Positions 25,477 to 42,340 of a stretch of DNA of 44,522 nt are shown piece by piece. The translations under genes were made by a program, and so were the position numbers. The notes below the pieces were generated by a model. The model did no database searches. It saw nothing but the letters and a program-made list of their open reading frames with translations, and was not told the DNA's origin. The DNA comes from a virus: positions 1 through 44,522 of IMG/VR virus record IMGVR_UViG_3300030060_006612. The stretch is one strand, 5' to 3'. How positions within the stretch are numbered: the stretch's first letter is position 1; each line of letters opens with the position of its first letter.

Positions 25477-26178
25477 ATGATTAAACTAATTGACATACTA
25501 AACGAAGGTGTATACGACCCAGGAATCTTTAAGGCAATATTCACTGCAGGTGGACCAGGTAGCGGTAAGTCTTATGCTGCAGCAACACTGTTTGGAATGC
25601 CAGAAAAAATGCCCTTTGTATCTGCTGATGGATTAAAATCTGTAAACAGCGATAAGTATTTTGAAACATATCTCAAAATGTCTGGTTTATCTCAAGACAT
25701 TTCAAAAATGACACCAGATGAATATGATAAGGCAATGGAAATAAGAGCTAAGAGTAAGAAGGTTAGAGATGCTGCACTAAAAAATTATATAAATGGTAGG
25801 TTAGGATTACTTATTGATGGTACAGGAAAAAATTATGCAAAAATTGCAAAACAAAAGGGTAGATTACAAGAAGTAGGATATGATTGCTATATGATTTTTG
25901 TAAACACTGACCTTGAAGTAGCATTAGAAAGAAATCAGATGAGAGATAGAAAGTTACCTTCAGAATTGGTGAAGAGCGCATGGCAAGGCGTACAAAATAA
26001 TTTAGGAAAGTTTCAATCATTATTTGGAAGCAGTAATATGTTAGTTGTAGACAATAGTGAATTCAAAGAATTTCCTAAAGTTGTAAAAAATGCAGCTAGA
26101 GAGTTTGTTAGGCGTCCTATACAAAACCATATAGCAAAGTCATGGATAAAAAAAGAATTGGAGCTTAGAAAAAAATGA
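25477..26178 (+). CDS. P-loop kinase (zeta-toxin / polynucleotide-kinase-like)
   Basis: The 233-residue protein carries a Walker A loop AGGPGSGKS at residues 24-32 preceded by a beta strand, and a likely second acidic site LLIDGTG near 110-116. An Arg-rich lid (ERNQMRDRKLP, near 150-160) completes the plan of small nucleoside/polynucleotide kinases and zeta toxins. The substrate cannot be told from sequence. The N-terminus, MIKLIDILNE followed by Gly, resembles a T4 capsid-targeting peptide with a gp21-type cut after Glu10, which would leave the kinase domain intact. Its stop overlaps the next start as ATGA, so it is tightly coupled to the adenylyltransferase-ligase protein. The late promoter directly upstream supports expression with virion genes. 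Confidence 0.75.
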   Translation: MIKLIDILNEGVYDPGIFKAIFTAGGPGSGKSYAAATLFGMPEKMPFVSADGLKSVNSDKYFETYLKMSGLSQDISKMTPDEYDKAMEIRAKSKKVRDAALKNYINGRLGLLIDGTGKNYAKIAKQKGRLQEVGYDCYMIFVNTDLEVALERNQMRDRKLPSELVKSAWQGVQNNLGKFQSLFGSSNMLVVDNSEFKEFPKVVKNAAREFVRRPIQNHIAKSWIKKELELRKK

Positions 26179-28556
26179 GTTTAGGTGATTATTTAGCTGA
26201 GCAAATACTACTAGAAGAAACAGAGATAACCAATATTGTTGCAATATATCCTGGTAGATTTCAACCTATGGGCAAACACCATGCACAAACATATAAGTGG
26301 CTACAGTCAAAGTTCAAAGATGCATATGTAGCAACTAGTGGTAAGGTAGACCTTCCAAAATCTCCATTCTCATTTGCAGAAAAGAAAAAAATAATAAATT
26401 CTCACGGAATAAAAAAGGTAACACAGGTAAAAAACCCATACCAAGCAAAAGAAATATTAAAAAAATATAATCCTAAAAAAACTGCGGCTGTATTTGTATT
26501 TGGCCAAAAAGACGCAGGGAGACTTGGTGGTAAATTTTTCAGGCCATGGGCAGGTAAAGCTGAGGTAGGTTATGAAGAAGGAGCATATTATATAACTGCA
26601 CCTCATATTAGCATGAACGTACCTGGATATGGAGAGATGAGTGGAACAGCAATTAGAAAAGCTCTAGGTGATAAAAAACTAGACGACAAGAAAAAACAAA
26701 AGGTATTTAAGGGAATATTTGGCCATACGAAAAACTATAAAATGATTGTTGGTAAGTTAGAAAAATTAAACGAAGTAATGGAAGATTTTTTTGAAAAGGT
26801 AGGATTAAAAAATATACTAAAAGAGGCCAGTAATACCTTACCAGGAGCAAGAGAGGTAGATGATGGACCAAGGTACTTTTATGGAACTCAAAAATCATAT
26901 AGAGAAGATACAAAAAAGATGGCTTTTAGGTTAGGTATGGATGTTGTAAATTATCTAGTACCAGAAGACGAATTCTTTCAACACGATACTGCATACCCAA
27001 ACGGACCAACTGGTGGTGTATCATACTTCCCAGCAGGTATACCGGCAACAGGTAAAAAAGACGTAACGGCTGGTACCAACTATGTTAAAGATAGGGTTGG
27101 AACTGCCGCTTATAGAAGATGGGCCAAATGGGCAAAGTATCTTGCTCAACAATCAGGATACGAATTTGTAAACTATCTAAGCGCAGATAAATCTATAAAG
27201 CAATCAAAAAAAGAACCTATATCACAAACGCCACAAATGAGTAAAATTAAAAACGCCCTTAAAAAACAAAAATTAGGTAAAAAGGCTAGTTTTCCAAAAG
27301 ATTACCAGGTAAATACTATAGATGAAAACTTAGGGCAATGGCTGGCGAATCAAATATTGCTATCTGAAGGAGGAGCTTATGGCCACATGTCCCATCCATT
27401 TGACGACAGAGGATTAACTTTTGGAGACTTTAAGAGAATAATAGATTTAGCTTTACAAGGAACATTAGATTTAGAACAAGCTGCAACAGAAAAAACTGAT
27501 GGCCAAAACTTATTTATTAGTTGGAACAATAAAATGTTGGCTGCTAGAAACACTGGAGACTTAAAACGTGGCGGAATGGACTATAAAGCAGTAGCAGCAA
27601 AATTTAAGGGTAGGGGTAATATTGAAAAAGCTTTTACTTTTGCAATGAAAGATTTAGAAAAGGCAATAAGTAGTTTATCTCCTAAACAGCAAGAAAAGAT
27701 ATTTAATAAGGGTAATAACTGGGTAAATATGGAAATAATGTACCCTGCATCAGCAAATGTAATCACTTATGACGCACCATATTTACAATTCCATAATGTA
27801 CTACAATATAAAAATGGAAAAGCTATTGGAGCAGTTACTGATGGGGCAAGAATATTGGCAGGTATGATAGCTCAGGTTAATCAAAACACTCAAAAGAACT
27901 TTTCTATAATTGGACCAAAAGTTTTGAAAATGAAAAAACACCAAGATTATGGGGCAAAAAGACCATATTTTATAGCAAAATTAAATAAGCTTATGAAAAA
28001 ATATGGAATGAAGGATAGCGACAGTTTTGGATATTATCATCAAGTTTGGTGGGAAAATTTTGTTGATAAAAAAATGAAGGGACTAGATAACAAGACAAGA
28101 ATGCAATTGGTTAAAAGGTGGGCATTTTTTGATAAGTCATTTAGATTAAACGGTAAAAATATACCTGATGAAAAATTATTAGCAAAGGCAAAAGATTTTG
28201 ATAAATTAAACCACGCAGACCAGGTAAAAAAGAATATGTTACCATTTGAAATTTTATTTTTTGAATTAGGAGCAGAGGTTCTTAAAAATGTAGAAGGATT
28301 TTTAGCTGCAAACCCAGATAAAGCTATACAAGACATGAGAAAACAGGTAGCAAAAGCTATTAGCGACGTTAGAAAAGGTGGAGACCTTAAAAAATTAAAC
28401 AGAATGACTCAACAACTACAAAAAATAGCTTCAATAGGAGGATTTAAGAGAATAGTTCCTAGTGAAGGATTGGTTTTTATATATAAAGGAAATACTTACA
28501 AATTAACAGGAGCGTTTGCACCGGTAAATCAAATAACCGGTATGATGACTTTCTAG
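26175..28556 (+). CDS. NMN-adenylyltransferase-like / ligase-like fusion, possible polyprotein
   Basis: This 793-residue protein combines two nucleotidyl-transfer folds. Residues ~20-195 are a HIGH-type adenylyltransferase: GRFQP (27-31), His35-His36 and SGTAIR (156-161), as in NMNAT/NadM enzymes that make NAD. Residues 218-380 form an unrecognised middle region. Residues ~400-793 hold a covalent nucleotidyltransferase (DNA/RNA ligase) signature: Lys440 in EKTDGQN as candidate adenylation lysine and VNMEI (Glu520) as a motif III-like strand. Short helices ending in gp21-like sites occur at the N-terminus (ILLEE, 11-15) and between the parts (ILKEA, Glu217; ILLSEG, Glu398), which suggests proteolytic separation. 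It is coupled to the kinase gene by an ATGA overlap. Substrates are unknown; NAD or RNA/DNA end repair is inferred. Confidence 0.72.
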   Translation: MSLGDYLAEQILLEETEITNIVAIYPGRFQPMGKHHAQTYKWLQSKFKDAYVATSGKVDLPKSPFSFAEKKKIINSHGIKKVTQVKNPYQAKEILKKYNPKKTAAVFVFGQKDAGRLGGKFFRPWAGKAEVGYEEGAYYITAPHISMNVPGYGEMSGTAIRKALGDKKLDDKKKQKVFKGIFGHTKNYKMIVGKLEKLNEVMEDFFEKVGLKNILKEASNTLPGAREVDDGPRYFYGTQKSYREDTKKMAFRLGMDVVNYLVPEDEFFQHDTAYPNGPTGGVSYFPAGIPATGKKDVTAGTNYVKDRVGTAAYRRWAKWAKYLAQQSGYEFVNYLSADKSIKQSKKEPISQTPQMSKIKNALKKQKLGKKASFPKDYQVNTIDENLGQWLANQILLSEGGAYGHMSHPFDDRGLTFGDFKRIIDLALQGTLDLEQAATEKTDGQNLFISWNNKMLAARNTGDLKRGGMDYKAVAAKFKGRGNIEKAFTFAMKDLEKAISSLSPKQQEKIFNKGNNWVNMEIMYPASANVITYDAPYLQFHNVLQYKNGKAIGAVTDGARILAGMIAQVNQNTQKNFSIIGPKVLKMKKHQDYGAKRPYFIAKLNKLMKKYGMKDSDSFGYYHQVWWENFVDKKMKGLDNKTRMQLVKRWAFFDKSFRLNGKNIPDEKLLAKAKDFDKLNHADQVKKNMLPFEILFFELGAEVLKNVEGFLAANPDKAIQDMRKQVAKAISDVRKGGDLKKLNRMTQQLQKIASIGGFKRIVPSEGLVFIYKGNTYKLTGAFAPVNQITGMMTF

Positions 28557-29456: not shown

Positions 29457-30338
29457 ATGAAACAAGAAAGATTACAAGAAATAATTAAGGAAGAATTAGT
29501 AGATGTTTTGATTGAAAATATAACAAGAAGATTTTCAAAAGCAGTAGAAGCTTATCAAAAGATCCAGTTGCAGCAACAACAACTAAGAAAGAAATTTGTT
29601 GATGAAAAAGACCCAAAAAAGAAAGAGGCATTAAAACAGTCTCTAATAACACTACACAAAAAAGTACAAAAGGCAGAATCAGATTTTAATTCGGCACTTA
29701 AAAGTGAGCCAATTGAAGATGACCTTATGGAAAAAAGCAAGGGTCTATGGGCAAATATACATGCTAAAAGAAAGCGTGGTGAAAAGCCTGCAAGAAAAGG
29801 CAGTAAAGCCTTCAAAAAAGCTAAAAAAGCTGCAAGAGATATAAATGAGGCCGGACAATATAAGGATGTTTCAGATAAATTCAAAGATGCTCTTGACAAT
29901 CTACCAGACAAAAAATTTACCATGAAAAACATACATGACCTAATAAAAAAGACAAAACAAAAAAGACCTGATTCAGCAATGGCATATGCTAAAGATGCAT
30001 TTGGATGGATAGGTGGAGGTAAATGGTTAAAGGAAGGCAAATTAAATGAAGATGTGTTTAAGTCTTTTTTAGGAGATGACCCAGCGTTTAAGTTATATAC
30101 TGCAACAAATACAGATAAAAGAAAATCTGTACAGGCTAGAAAAACAGATAAGACTTGGGACGATGGAGTTCCTGTACTAAAATATATTGCAAGAGCACCA
30201 AAAAAAGATTCACCTTTACCAAAAGGTAAATTTAAGATTATAGAAGATAATAAACATGGTTGGTGGTACTATCAAGTAGGAAATACTTGGTATGGTATAA
30301 GTCAAAAAGACTATGGCACCCCACCATTTGAATACTAA
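29457..30338 (+). CDS. Basic protein with candidate capsid-targeting N-terminus
   Basis: This 293-residue, Lys-rich protein is not assigned. Residues 1-20 form an amphipathic helix (MKQERLQEIIKEELVDVLIE), like a T4 capsid-targeting sequence. A coiled coil follows to about 80, then the motif GLWANIHAKRKRGEKP (97-112), which I recall from many unnamed proteins of T4-like marine phages. A possible cut site INEAG is at Glu131 and another, LKEG, lies in the following domain. The C-terminal ~60 residues (KFKIIEDNKHGWWYYQVGN, YGIS) look like a small SH3-like barrel. It lies one base after the XhlA-like gene. It may be an internal head protein or a lysis-linked protein; the first fits its basic charge better. 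Confidence 0.6.
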   Translation: MKQERLQEIIKEELVDVLIENITRRFSKAVEAYQKIQLQQQQLRKKFVDEKDPKKKEALKQSLITLHKKVQKAESDFNSALKSEPIEDDLMEKSKGLWANIHAKRKRGEKPARKGSKAFKKAKKAARDINEAGQYKDVSDKFKDALDNLPDKKFTMKNIHDLIKKTKQKRPDSAMAYAKDAFGWIGGGKWLKEGKLNEDVFKSFLGDDPAFKLYTATNTDKRKSVQARKTDKTWDDGVPVLKYIARAPKKDSPLPKGKFKIIEDNKHGWWYYQVGNTWYGISQKDYGTPPFEY

Positions 30339-34300: not shown

Positions 34301-35158
34301 GTGGCAAAAGGTATAAAACATTCAAAAATAAAAAACACTGGCGTCTTATTTGAGATGCTAGTTAGACAAATAACCTCTGACACGTTAAATGGGGTTGCTG
34401 TCTCTCCTGCTCTTAAGATAGTTAAAGAGCATTTTGGAAAAAGCAGCGCACTAAAAAAAGAATTAAACTTATATAATTCCTTAATAAAGGAAAAGTTTGC
34501 AAATATAAAAAGGGCAGAAAGGTTCGTAGATTTAGTTTTGGTAGAAAGGCTAAAAATATCTGAAGGAGAATTGAAAAGAAAAAAATATAATCTAATAAAA
34601 GAGATAGGTAAAAAATACGACCTTAATTCTTTTTTTAGAACAAAGATTTCAAATTACAAAATAAACGCTTCAATATATAAATTATTTGAATCTCACAAGA
34701 ACAAGGGCATAAATAATCCTAAAGTAATATTAGAATGTAGAGATAATATAATAGACCACATATCTTCAGCTCCTAGATCTACCCAAGAAAAAGTATTAAA
34801 AGAATACACAAAACAAGATAAAGAGATAAGACTTTTAAGCTATAAGATATTATTGGAAAAGTTTAATAAGCAATACGGTAAAACTTTAAGTGAAGAGCAA
34901 AAGTCATTACTTAGAAAATATATAACTAGCAATGGAAAAAATACTCTTAATTATATAAGAGAAGAGGCTTCTAAGGGTAGAAAAAATATATTAAAATCTG
35001 TAAATAAAATTGATGATAAGATAACAACCATTAAATTAAAGGAAGTTGCAAATCAATTAAAAAAGGTAGAAAAATCAAAGAGTGTTAGCGATAACCACAT
35101 ATCAACAATAATGAATTTATATGAGTTATTAAAGGAGATTAAAGTTGTCACTAAGTAA
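34301..35158 (+). CDS. Prohead-region protein, helical, unknown
   Basis: The 285-residue, Lys-rich protein is largely helical, with conserved-looking starts KIKNTGVLFEMLVRQITSD (residues 10-28) and LLRKYITSNG (near 203). It starts with GTG after GGGAGAAATTTAAG, an unusual start for this phage. I recall related unnamed proteins beside the portal and protease genes of marine T4-like phages, where T4 keeps core genes 67 and 68. There is no enzymatic motif, cysteine pair or membrane segment. A prohead core or assembly role is inferred from position only. It overlaps the next gene by 14 bases. Confidence 0.65.
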   Translation: MAKGIKHSKIKNTGVLFEMLVRQITSDTLNGVAVSPALKIVKEHFGKSSALKKELNLYNSLIKEKFANIKRAERFVDLVLVERLKISEGELKRKKYNLIKEIGKKYDLNSFFRTKISNYKINASIYKLFESHKNKGINNPKVILECRDNIIDHISSAPRSTQEKVLKEYTKQDKEIRLLSYKILLEKFNKQYGKTLSEEQKSLLRKYITSNGKNTLNYIREEASKGRKNILKSVNKIDDKITTIKLKEVANQLKKVEKSKSVSDNHISTIMNLYELLKEIKVVTK

Positions 35159-35588
35159 AAGATTAAAAGAAATAATTGATGAAATAATCAATGAAGAGGA
35201 ATTAGAAGAAGCTTCTACTACTGCTAATGTTCCAGGATACCAAACTCCATACGCATTTACAGGAAAAGATGAAGAATCTAAAAAGAAAAAAGAAAAAAAT
35301 GCTACAACTAGTACTGGATATAAGATGGTGAAGGAAATATATAACCAAAACTACCCAGCATTTAAGAAGGATGACACAAAAAATTCTAGACAAAAAGTTA
35401 ACGGGGCTATTAAGGAAATAAATAAGAGACTTTTTGAAATAGAAAGAATAATTGGTAGGACGGCTAAACTCAAAAAAGAGGCAGGTGTTTCTACTGATAA
35501 CTATTGGAAACCAACCAAGCCAAGGTTGAAGAAAATAGCTGAGAGATTATTAAAAGTATCACAAAAATTAACAGAGATAGCTTCATAA
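35145..35588 (+). CDS. Small head protein with gp21-like cleavage site, TTG start
   Basis: The 147-residue protein starts at TTG 35145, placed by a clear AAAGGAG site five to ten bases upstream; no in-frame ATG lies near. The first 22 residues are an acidic amphipathic helix ending in LEEA, a strong match to the gp21 cut consensus with cleavage after Glu22. Then comes TANVPGYQTPYAFTG, a conserved-looking motif, and a basic helical C-terminus. This is the plan of T4 internal or core proteins: targeting peptide removed, basic remainder kept with DNA. It overlaps the previous stop by 14 bases. The precise counterpart in T4 cannot be named. Confidence 0.66.
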   Translation: MSLSKRLKEIIDEIINEEELEEASTTANVPGYQTPYAFTGKDEESKKKKEKNATTSTGYKMVKEIYNQNYPAFKKDDTKNSRQKVNGAIKEINKRLFEIERIIGRTAKLKKEAGVSTDNYWKPTKPRLKKIAERLLKVSQKLTEIAS

Positions 35589-36488: not shown

Positions 36489-37160
36489 ATGTCAAAAAAC
36501 TTGCTAATAGATTATACACCCTTTGAGATTTCCCCTCAAATGATAGCCGAGTCAGAAACGCGAAATAACGGACGTGTTATTGTTACTGGCTGTCTTCAAA
36601 GGGCAGATGCAAAAAACCAAAATGGCAGAGTTTATCCTAAAAACATTCTTATGAGAGAAGTAAAAAACTATAAAAATGTTAATATAAAAGAGAGAAGAGC
36701 TCTAGGAGAGTTAGACCATCCAGAGTCAAGTGTTGTTAACCTACAAAATGTTTCTCATAACGTAAAAGACGTTTGGTGGAAAGGAAACGATGTAATGGGA
36801 ACTGTAGAAGTACTAGGTACCCCGGCTGGAAATATACTAAAGGAATTATTAAAGGCAGGTGTAAAACTTGGTATTAGTAGTAGAGGATTAGGTAGTGTAG
36901 AAGAATTATATGAAGATGGAGAATCAGCAGTACAGGTGAAGGATGACTTTGAACTTATATGTTGGGACTTTGTTTCTAACCCTTCTACTCACGGAGCATT
37001 TATGCAACCAACATCTATGAATGAAAGTGTAAATGTTGTAAAAAGTGCAAATAAAAAATATGATAAGATAAATGGCATAATCTCAGACATGCTCTGCGAG
37101 TTAACTGGTAAATGTGAGATACCAGTTTTAGCCACTGAAAACTGTTGCGGAGATAAATAA
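36489..37160 (+). CDS. Prohead core protease (gp21-like, peptidase S77)
   Basis: The 223-residue serine protease matures the T4-type head by cutting scaffold, internal proteins and the capsid protein after Glu in L/I-x-E contexts. Catalytic His77 is in GELDHPES, and the nucleophile is Ser131 (or Ser130) in GISSRGLGS. Surrounding herpesvirus-protease-like strands are conserved: RVYPKNILMREV (47-58) and VKDDFELICWDFVSNPSTHG (near 155-174, carrying the likely acidic member). A possible self-cleavage site MIAES occurs near residue 18-22. The start follows AAGGG. Stop and next ATG share one base (TAATG). The presence of this enzyme makes the candidate cleavage sites in neighbouring proteins meaningful. 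Confidence 0.92.
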   Translation: MSKNLLIDYTPFEISPQMIAESETRNNGRVIVTGCLQRADAKNQNGRVYPKNILMREVKNYKNVNIKERRALGELDHPESSVVNLQNVSHNVKDVWWKGNDVMGTVEVLGTPAGNILKELLKAGVKLGISSRGLGSVEELYEDGESAVQVKDDFELICWDFVSNPSTHGAFMQPTSMNESVNVVKSANKKYDKINGIISDMLCELTGKCEIPVLATENCCGDK

Positions 37161-40699: not shown

Positions 40700-42340
40700 A
40701 TGGCAAATATTTCAAATTTATTGAATGATGCTGGTAACGCTTACGAAAGCCGATTGAATGAAACAAGAGGTTTAGTATCTAAGTGGGAAAAGACTGGTCT
40801 TCTAGAAGGAATTGGACAAGAATACGACAAAAGTGGTATGGCTGTTCTTCTAGAAAATCAAGCTCGTCAGTTAATTGATGAGGCTTCTAACACTTCAAGC
40901 GGTACTGCAAGTAAAGAACAGTGGTCAGGTGTTGCGCTTCCATTAGTACGTAGAGTATTTGGTGAAATCGCTGCAAAAGACTTCGTATCTGTTCAACCAA
41001 TGAATCTTCCATCAGGTCTAGTATTTTTCTTAGACTTTAAATATGGTACTGATTCAGACTCTAATGTTGGTGGCGCATTCGCTGGTGACATTATGGGTAA
41101 CACTTCAGCTTCTAACCAAGACCCACAAGGTGGTTTATATGGTAACTCACCTGCAGGAGGTGGTAGAGCTGGATACACTAGTAAAACTAGAACAGCAAAC
41201 TCAACTAACATTGTATCATCATCTGCAACATGGCAAGACGTAGGCTTTAGCGCTGTACTTTCTGCATCTGTAGCTGGCGGTAGAATTGTTAAAGTTTCTT
41301 TACCAAAATCAGAATTAACTGATGGTACTTTCTCAATAGATACTGACTCTATTAGAGGTGCATACGTTACTGGATCTGGTATAACTGCTGCTCAAAACTT
41401 AAATGCTTATCACACTTATGATGCAACGACTACTTCAGCATCTTTCTTCGTTACTCAGTCGTCTTTAGCTGGTACACTTAAAGCTGGTGGACAAACTTTC
41501 CACTACCAAGGTGCAACTACTCAAGACCTAAGAAACGACTTTGAGATGGTTGGTTCTAACGTTGACGCTGCATTATCAACTCAAGATATAGGTATTCCTC
41601 AGATTGATGTTGACTTAAGAAGTGAAGCTATTGTTGCTAAAACAAGAAAGCTAAAAGCTGCATGGTCTCCTGAGTTCGCTCAAGACTTAAATGCTTACCA
41701 CAGTATTGATGCTGAAGCTGAATTAACTTCTATGTTATCTGAGTACATTTCAATGGAAATTGACTTAGAAATCTTAGATATGTTAATTGCTAACGCTAAC
41801 ACTACTGATTACTGGTCAGCTACTCTTGGTGAAGTATACGATGGTACAAGCGCATTCTTAAGCCCAACGGCTGCAGAAGCTTATACTCAGTTTACTTGGT
41901 TCCAAACTTTAGGTACAAAAGTTCAGAAAGTTTCTAATAAGATACACCAAAAAACTCTTAGAGGTGGTGCTAACTTCTTAGTTACTTCTCCAGAAGTTGC
42001 AACTATTCTAGAATCTATTCCAGGATACGCTGCAGATACTGATGGTTCTGCTGCATCATTTGCAATGGGTGTACAAAAAGTTGGAGCATTGAACTCTAGA
42101 TTTACTGTTTACAAAAATCCTTACATGAAAGAAAACACTATCTTGTTAGGATTTAGAGGTTCTCAATTCTTGGAAACTGGAGCGGTTTACGCACCATACA
42201 TTCCGTTAATTATGACTCCTCTAGTGTACGATCCAACTAACTTTACTCCACGTAAAGGTGTAATGACTCGTTACGCTAAGAAAATGGTAAGACCAGAATT
42301 CTATGGTAAAATCCAAATTGCTGGATTAAATAGAATCTAA
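40700..42340 (+). CDS. Major capsid protein (gp23-like)
   Basis: The frame is open from an ATG at 40682, but the AAAGGAG site at 40685-40691 lies inside that extension and serves the ATG at 40700, giving 546 residues. The N-terminus resembles T4-type gp23 (LSKWEKTGLLEG-like block near 28-42). The gp21 site is QLIDE/ASNT, cleavage after Glu61, close to T4's Glu65. The body has the HK97-type fold, with conserved-looking pieces GAKDFVSVQPMNLPSGLVF-like near 95 and the C-terminal RYAKKMVRPEFYG. Codon use is adapted (ATT/ATC, AAC, GAC, TTC), as expected for the most abundant protein. A strong terminator follows. Identification is firm. Confidence 0.94.
   Translation: MANISNLLNDAGNAYESRLNETRGLVSKWEKTGLLEGIGQEYDKSGMAVLLENQARQLIDEASNTSSGTASKEQWSGVALPLVRRVFGEIAAKDFVSVQPMNLPSGLVFFLDFKYGTDSDSNVGGAFAGDIMGNTSASNQDPQGGLYGNSPAGGGRAGYTSKTRTANSTNIVSSSATWQDVGFSAVLSASVAGGRIVKVSLPKSELTDGTFSIDTDSIRGAYVTGSGITAAQNLNAYHTYDATTTSASFFVTQSSLAGTLKAGGQTFHYQGATTQDLRNDFEMVGSNVDAALSTQDIGIPQIDVDLRSEAIVAKTRKLKAAWSPEFAQDLNAYHSIDAEAELTSMLSEYISMEIDLEILDMLIANANTTDYWSATLGEVYDGTSAFLSPTAAEAYTQFTWFQTLGTKVQKVSNKIHQKTLRGGANFLVTSPEVATILESIPGYAADTDGSAASFAMGVQKVGALNSRFTVYKNPYMKENTILLGFRGSQFLETGAVYAPYIPLIMTPLVYDPTNFTPRKGVMTRYAKKMVRPEFYGKIQIAGLNRI

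Follow-up and report, generated by a model that had tools for sequence, protein, structure and literature searches.

A modular protein of 793 amino acids encoded in the virus record IMGVR_UViG_3300030060_006612 is read here as a polyprotein that a marine T4-like phage would recruit to its head by means of a leader, cut there, and pack and inject as separate units. A probability of about 0.7 is assigned to this reading; RNA repair is the likeliest function, with a lower probability of its own. The window, i.e. the whole stretch of 44,522 nucleotides analysed, is a 44.5-kb virus fragment with T4-like head genes for terminase, portal, prohead protease and a gp23-like capsid protein. The open reading frame (ORF) comprises an adenylyltransferase-like unit (NT), a middle unit (MID) and a ligase-like unit (LIG), separated by linkers (Table 1). 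Judging from the sequence comparisons, it is well supported that the ORF encodes a polyprotein whose units are separated by predicted prohead-protease sites, on account of the conservation of these sites, gene splits at the same junctions in relatives, module swaps at LxE motifs and a corresponding site in the major capsid protein. The original prediction, made by a model from the DNA letters, had proposed a polyprotein cut by gp21 with a function linked to nicotinamide adenine dinucleotide (NAD); the four lines of evidence bear out the sites between the units, while the NAD-linked function found no support.

In the proposed mechanism, the N-terminal leader would act like the capsid-targeting sequences of T4 and bring the entire chain to the prohead core. 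The gp21-like protease would cut the linkers after [L/I]-x-E at about glutamate (Glu) 14, Glu200/217 and Glu384/398. These cuts would free an adenylyltransferase-like enzyme, a protein without assigned function and an RNA-ligase-like enzyme, which would stay beside the DNA in the head and be injected along with it.

Table 1. Features of the window discussed in the text; a slash within a sequence marks a predicted cut
Feature	Position	Strand	Evidence or remarks
Modular ORF, 793 amino acids, putative virion polyprotein	26175..28556	+	full-length relatives 59-82% identical, many IMG/VR contigs
N-terminal leader, capsid-targeting-like helix, predicted site LLE/E after Glu14	26175..26216	+	conserved column; copied at junction 3
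NT module, adenylyl/cytidylyltransferase-like domain, residues 20-195	26232..26759	+	profile matches to PPAT and NMNAT structures
NT-MID spacer, predicted sites LNE/V (Glu200) and LKE/ASNT (Glu217)	26760..26825	+	conserved Glu; gene boundary here in L098
MID module, conserved domain without assigned function, residues 228-345	26856..27209	+	family alignment
Internal leader copy NLGQWLANQILLSE, predicted sites IDE/N (Glu384) before it and LSE/GG (Glu398) at its end	27327..27368	+	conservation, leader comparison
LIG module, covalent nucleotidyltransferase/RNA-ligase-like, residues 400-793	27372..28553	+	invariant motifs, AF2, Foldseek
Upstream kinase gene, AAA_33/Zeta_toxin, polynucleotide-kinase-like	25477..26178	+	4-base overlap with the ORF start; leader MIKLIDILNE/GVYDPG
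Prohead protease (head maturation protease), presumed cutter	36489..37160	+	phrog_207, E = 2e-54
gp23-like major capsid protein, predicted maturation site LIDE/ASNT after Glu61	40700..42340	+	conserved column

Predicted cut sites and leaders

The protease gp21 of T4 cuts after L/I-x-E, and the internal proteins of T4 bear capsid-targeting leaders (PMC9026906). L/I-x-E is found at the predicted cut positions of the ORF, and the genome encodes both a protease and a capsid protein in which this site recurs. All seven occurrences of the [LI]xE motif in the 793 residues are located in linkers, and the 688 residues of the domains contain none; in terms of Glu, the motif takes up 7 of the 13 in linkers versus none of the 23 in domains (Fisher p = 2e-4). 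In 59 family members the respective values are 355/664 and 50/1604, counts that are not independent, the domains being conserved. In more distant relatives the motif accounts for 14/1144 Glu in the ligase unit, 30/353 in the first unit and 553/1950 in the remainder of the chains.

Cuts had originally been predicted after Glu15, Glu217 and Glu398. The latter two were confirmed as conserved residues (74/74 and 75/76, respectively). The first had to be shifted by one residue, Glu15 being present in just 28 of 75 sequences and Glu14 in 72 of 75, with [LIV] at position -2 in 98% and a variable position -1. Among 59 nonredundant members, the combination of a conserved Glu, [LIV] at -2 and a freely varying -1 was found in columns 14, 217 and 398 only. 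Glu200 is conserved as well (59/59, with [LIV] at -2), but has a near-fixed Asn at -1. Across the relatives, [LIVM]xE precedes MID in 133 of 133 and LIG in 154 of 162 cases. The site LKE/ASNT at junction 2 matches the site LIDE/ASNT of the major capsid protein of the same window, in which E61 is conserved in 62 of 62 sequences, with I/V at -2 and A/S/N/T at +1 in all of them. The leaders of the upstream kinase and of the ORF at 35145-35588 contain this type of site as well.

The two leader segments described earlier as copies of one another, SLGDYLAEQILLE and NLGQWLANQILLS, are apparently true copies: their comparison within the protein gives z = 6.4, a score that no leader among 2000 shuffled ones attained, by which a chance likeness of the N-terminal leader and residues 385-398 was ruled out. 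Since the latter residues repeat the N-terminal leader, they fit a history in which the LIG gene formerly possessed a leader of its own and was then fused. A leader pattern derived from the family gave 92 matches in 739,915 amino acids of six-frame ORFs of these loci, all of them in the family (58 near an N-terminus, 34 internal); this count reflects the specificity of the pattern and not its significance, the pattern having been drawn from the family itself.

Relatives, gene splits and module swaps

The closest cultured relatives according to terminase and capsid protein are phage Mel-JY01 (host listed as Microcystis elabens), Flavobacterium phage immuto and Rhodothermus phage RM378, which makes a Bacteroidota host plausible for the window phage. 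An IMG/VR scan yielded 201 relatives and a scan with the protein of Mel-JY01, in which an NT-ligase chain is encoded, yielded 304; the family is spread over hundreds of marine viral contigs. No matches were obtained in the scan seeded with the distant relative L002. The fetched window-like relatives covering the gene encode the same three units, except for L021 (3075-5471), where the gene is broken into frames of 71 and 691 amino acids by mutation or sequencing error.

In more differently built relatives, gene boundaries are located at the predicted sites. The chain of L098 is encoded by two genes split at the NT/MID junction, the first of which includes a PAP2 phosphatase, while the second begins with its own leader ending in FLKE/S. 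A free-standing ligase unit, again with its own leader (ending in LILE/GG), is found in L003 and L085. The kinase, encoded upstream of the window ORF and matching phrog_505 (E = 3e-7), is fused in frame in many relatives, where it is flanked by an xE/G site upstream and an xE site downstream, and at least six kinds of modules can come next. Relatives reach at least 2,428 amino acids in a single frame; this one is open at its 5' end (L086, 1-7287) and comprises, besides the kinase and the NT, MID and LIG units, an HD domain and a CCA tRNA nucleotidyltransferase. In L159 a zinc protease is added (Zn_protease, PF05618). The CCA-adding enzyme and the zinc protease are single cases among the relatives. 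Among cultured phages, the kinase is also encoded by Pelagibacter phage HTVC008M and Agrobacterium phage Atu_ph07. The kinase relative in Atu_ph07 is coding sequence (CDS) 53 (by count), with the kinase behind an internal VTE/GVND site. A hint in favour of packing is that CDS 53 is situated inside the cluster CDS 31-76, for which virions were shown to contain 29 of the encoded proteins (PMC6102473).

Of 157 module breakpoints between differently built relatives, 91 (58%) were at most five residues away from an [LIVMF]xE motif, compared to 26 (16.6%) expected; the breakpoints were drawn from related proteins, so that the p value overstates their independence. The breakpoints were split into a family and a control set, the unfiltered set being diluted by tail-fibre proteins. 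Nothing comparable was observed for the control motifs xD, xK and xQ/N or for the tail-fibre proteins.

The preferred reading of a processed polyprotein has to be weighed against two others, both of which concern the fate of the chain. An ordinary multidomain fusion enzyme working uncut in the infected cell, with the linkers as flexible joints and the LxE helices as helix ends or docking elements, would agree with the kinase, ligase and nucleotidyltransferase gene fusions known from phages, with the helical linkers in the models and with the shortness of the motif. It is nonetheless improbable in view of a near-invariant Glu beside a variable neighbour in otherwise drifting linkers, the recurrence of the site in the capsid protein, genes split exactly at the sites and a breakpoint enrichment that is missing from the control proteins. 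Slightly less probable still is a packaged chain that loses its N-terminal leader only and functions undivided, as one polyvalent protein, once injected, the inner sites being fusion relics. In its favour, polyvalent proteins presumably enter the cell by injection as large chains of several domains, in some cases without being cut (PMC5512222), and the internal leader copy resembles a fused former N-terminus. Relics, however, would be expected to degenerate, whereas Glu217 and Glu398 are retained in 99-100% of the sequences amid varying residues.

Several other ORFs of the window carry similar motifs. The ORF at 35145-35588 has a conserved site of the LEE/ASTT type after a variable acidic leader, and its counterpart in L052 has an extra unit between two LxE sites. 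Several [LI]xE motifs are located in the first 20 residues of the ORF at 29457-30338, of which a relative in L054 possesses extra N-terminal material with LxE boundaries. In the ORF at 34301-35158 (285 amino acids), 14 of 23 Glu belong to [LI]xE, the highest share among the window proteins counted.

The units and their predicted function

Whole-protein scans of the ORF against Pfam, PHROG and NCBIfam gave weak matches only. The motifs listed in the original prediction are present as described (GRFQP at 27-31, H35-H36, SGTAIR at 156-161, K440-T-D-G443 and VNMEI with E520), to which E764-G765 and K776 can be added as further ligase motifs. The key motif residues are invariant or nearly so in diverse alignments.

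The adenylyltransferase fold expected for the first part is supported by profile matches of NT to solved structures of PPAT (3e-5) and nicotinamide mononucleotide (NMN) adenylyltransferase (NMNAT; 7e-4). With regard to substrate preference these matches are mixed, PPAT being the best. The SxTxxR motif and a nucleotidylyltransferase profile are present, and the Pfam domain CTP_transf_like is under the cut-off in the window member and over it in several relatives. The HxGH motif expected of an NMN adenylyltransferase (window 26253-26282) is altered to GxHH and reads GKHH throughout the family; HRGH is retained in the distant L002. For MID, profile searches gave no match in Pfam, PHROG or PDB sequences, in agreement with the earlier description of a middle part without recognisable identity, and its AlphaFold2 (AF2) model is poor (predicted local distance difference test, pLDDT, 59).

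LIG contains residues that are invariant across the alignments, namely KxDG (K440, D442, G443), E520, E764-G765 and K776. KxDG as motif I together with motifs III, IV and V places it with the covalent nucleotidyltransferase superfamily, the motifs having been assigned by eye. With about 240 residues separating motifs III and IV, LIG contains a large insert. The AF2 model (pLDDT 72) was compared to solved structures with Foldseek, and the best matches were Palaeococcus RNA ligase (Rnl3) and T4 Rnl1 (E 1e-3 to 5e-3, with a Foldseek probability of 0.99 at E 1e-3); a comparison with predicted viral structures was headed by several phage proteins of the cytidyltransferase-like type, followed by RNA ligases. 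Structure prediction and profiles are consistent with the two folds proposed earlier, the ligase type (motifs, AF2 and Foldseek) and the adenylyltransferase type (profiles). DUF6267 of HTVC008M, which has KWDG, was considered as a homologue of LIG and failed to align with the module. The DUF6267 protein (L247, 3245-4477) is encoded two genes upstream of the kinase and may be another covalent nucleotidyltransferase.

The likeliest job of the enzymes is RNA repair, above all of tRNA cut by host defences and together with the adjacent kinase, an assignment made tentatively and at somewhat less than even odds. It is based on the domain partners, i.e. the polynucleotide-kinase-like kinase, the RNA-ligase fold and, in one relative, the CCA-adding enzyme, which is combined with kinase and ligase in the single ORF of L086. 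Repair of defence-cut tRNA is familiar from large phages (PMC7824862, PMC9503650).

A kit that restores NAD against NAD-depleting defences, with NT as a true NMN adenylyltransferase, would be compatible with a polyprotein and is considered unlikely. The profile similarity of NT to NMNAT structures would agree with it, as would the NAD-synthesis enzymes of several phages, discussed as a counter-strategy (PMC9503650), and gp183 of Flavobacterium phage immuto, which is encoded upstream of the head genes and annotated as NMNAT/NadR. It is opposed by the best profile matches of NT, which are to PPAT, by the altered HxGH motif and by the recurrent partners, which are RNA-end enzymes. The NAD-linked capping or repair enzyme suggested originally found no support, the partners of the units in relatives pointing to RNA repair, and NAD capping was dropped for lack of evidence. 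The immuto protein gp183 (L250, 67-2790) is 907 amino acids long and contains an NMNAT-like unit, a pol-beta nucleotidyltransferase-like stretch (recognised by eye) and two HExxH motifs.

Some observations weigh against a processed and injected set of RNA-repair enzymes. The relatives compared are not independent of each other, and the motif is short and common, [LI]xE accounting for 11-26% of Glu in window genes outside the presumed cargo and scaffold. The known cuts in the giant phage SPN3US take off terminal propeptides, and none of them separates folded enzymes (PMC10052503). Template modelling (TM) scores of the LIG fold matches are low (about 0.2) and the model is partly uncertain; a search with the LIG profile found no ligase among the sequences of solved structures, and Pfam and profile searches gave no match to a known RNA-ligase family. 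Moreover, the activity of NT could be altered or lost given the change of HxGH to GxHH.

Comparison with known systems

The ORF is a variation on the theme of polyvalent proteins and capsid targeting. Like the capsid-targeted, gp21-processed internal proteins of T4 (IPI-III, Alt), it has a short N-terminal leader ending in L/I-x-E and a cargo presumed to be packed into the head, and a gp21-like protease and a gp23-like capsid are encoded by the same phage. In contrast to the T4 proteins, which are one protein each, leader-and-site units are repeated within a single chain, where they set different enzymes apart. Polyvalent proteins (Iyer et al. 2017, PMC5512222) are likewise large chains of disparate enzymes with modular shuffling and presumed injection, and the polyprotein analogy has already been drawn for them (PMC5512222). 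The window ORF has at least two disparate domains in one chain, shuffled among relatives. Pfam revealed none of the polyvalent hub domains (embedded peptidase/MPTase, ArdC-N, ART, MuF) in it, while the relative L159 has Zn_protease. Release of polyvalent proteins is ascribed to embedded peptidase domains, whereas the sites in the window ORF fit the head protease of the phage itself. Further differences lie in the T4-like lineage and in the domain set, which consists of kinase, CCA-adding enzyme, adenylyltransferase and RNA-ligase fold. In phiKZ and SPN3US, a gp21-related protease processes head and ejected proteins after x-x-E, and more than one site is used in some of these proteins.

The closest functional model is T4 Pnkp-Rnl1 tRNA repair (for a review see PMC7824862), in which a kinase and an RNA ligase act on cleaved RNA, as would the kinase and the RNA-ligase fold described here. 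The T4 enzymes are separate and not known to bear leaders, whereas the window enzymes have predicted head-protease sites, and the wide spacing of motifs III and IV in the window ligase module is a further difference. The open-licence literature searched yielded no account of distinct enzymes set apart by sites for a prohead protease, which is weak evidence given that scope.

As a broader proposal, possible but with the odds against it, marine T4-like phages may build injected enzymes as modular polyproteins that are split by the head protease, each unit being added with an LxE site. Here the chain would supply an RNA-repair set (kinase, ligase, nucleotidyltransferases) acting before phage gene expression. 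If true, a phage would use the protease-processed polyprotein, a trick of eukaryotic viruses, with the capsid as processing chamber. The leader combined with [LI]xE would furthermore provide a sequence rule for finding injected phage enzymes in large metagenomic families, most members of which bear the annotation hypothetical. Should RNA repair be the true function, these enzymes would represent a pre-emptive answer to tRNA-cleaving defences.
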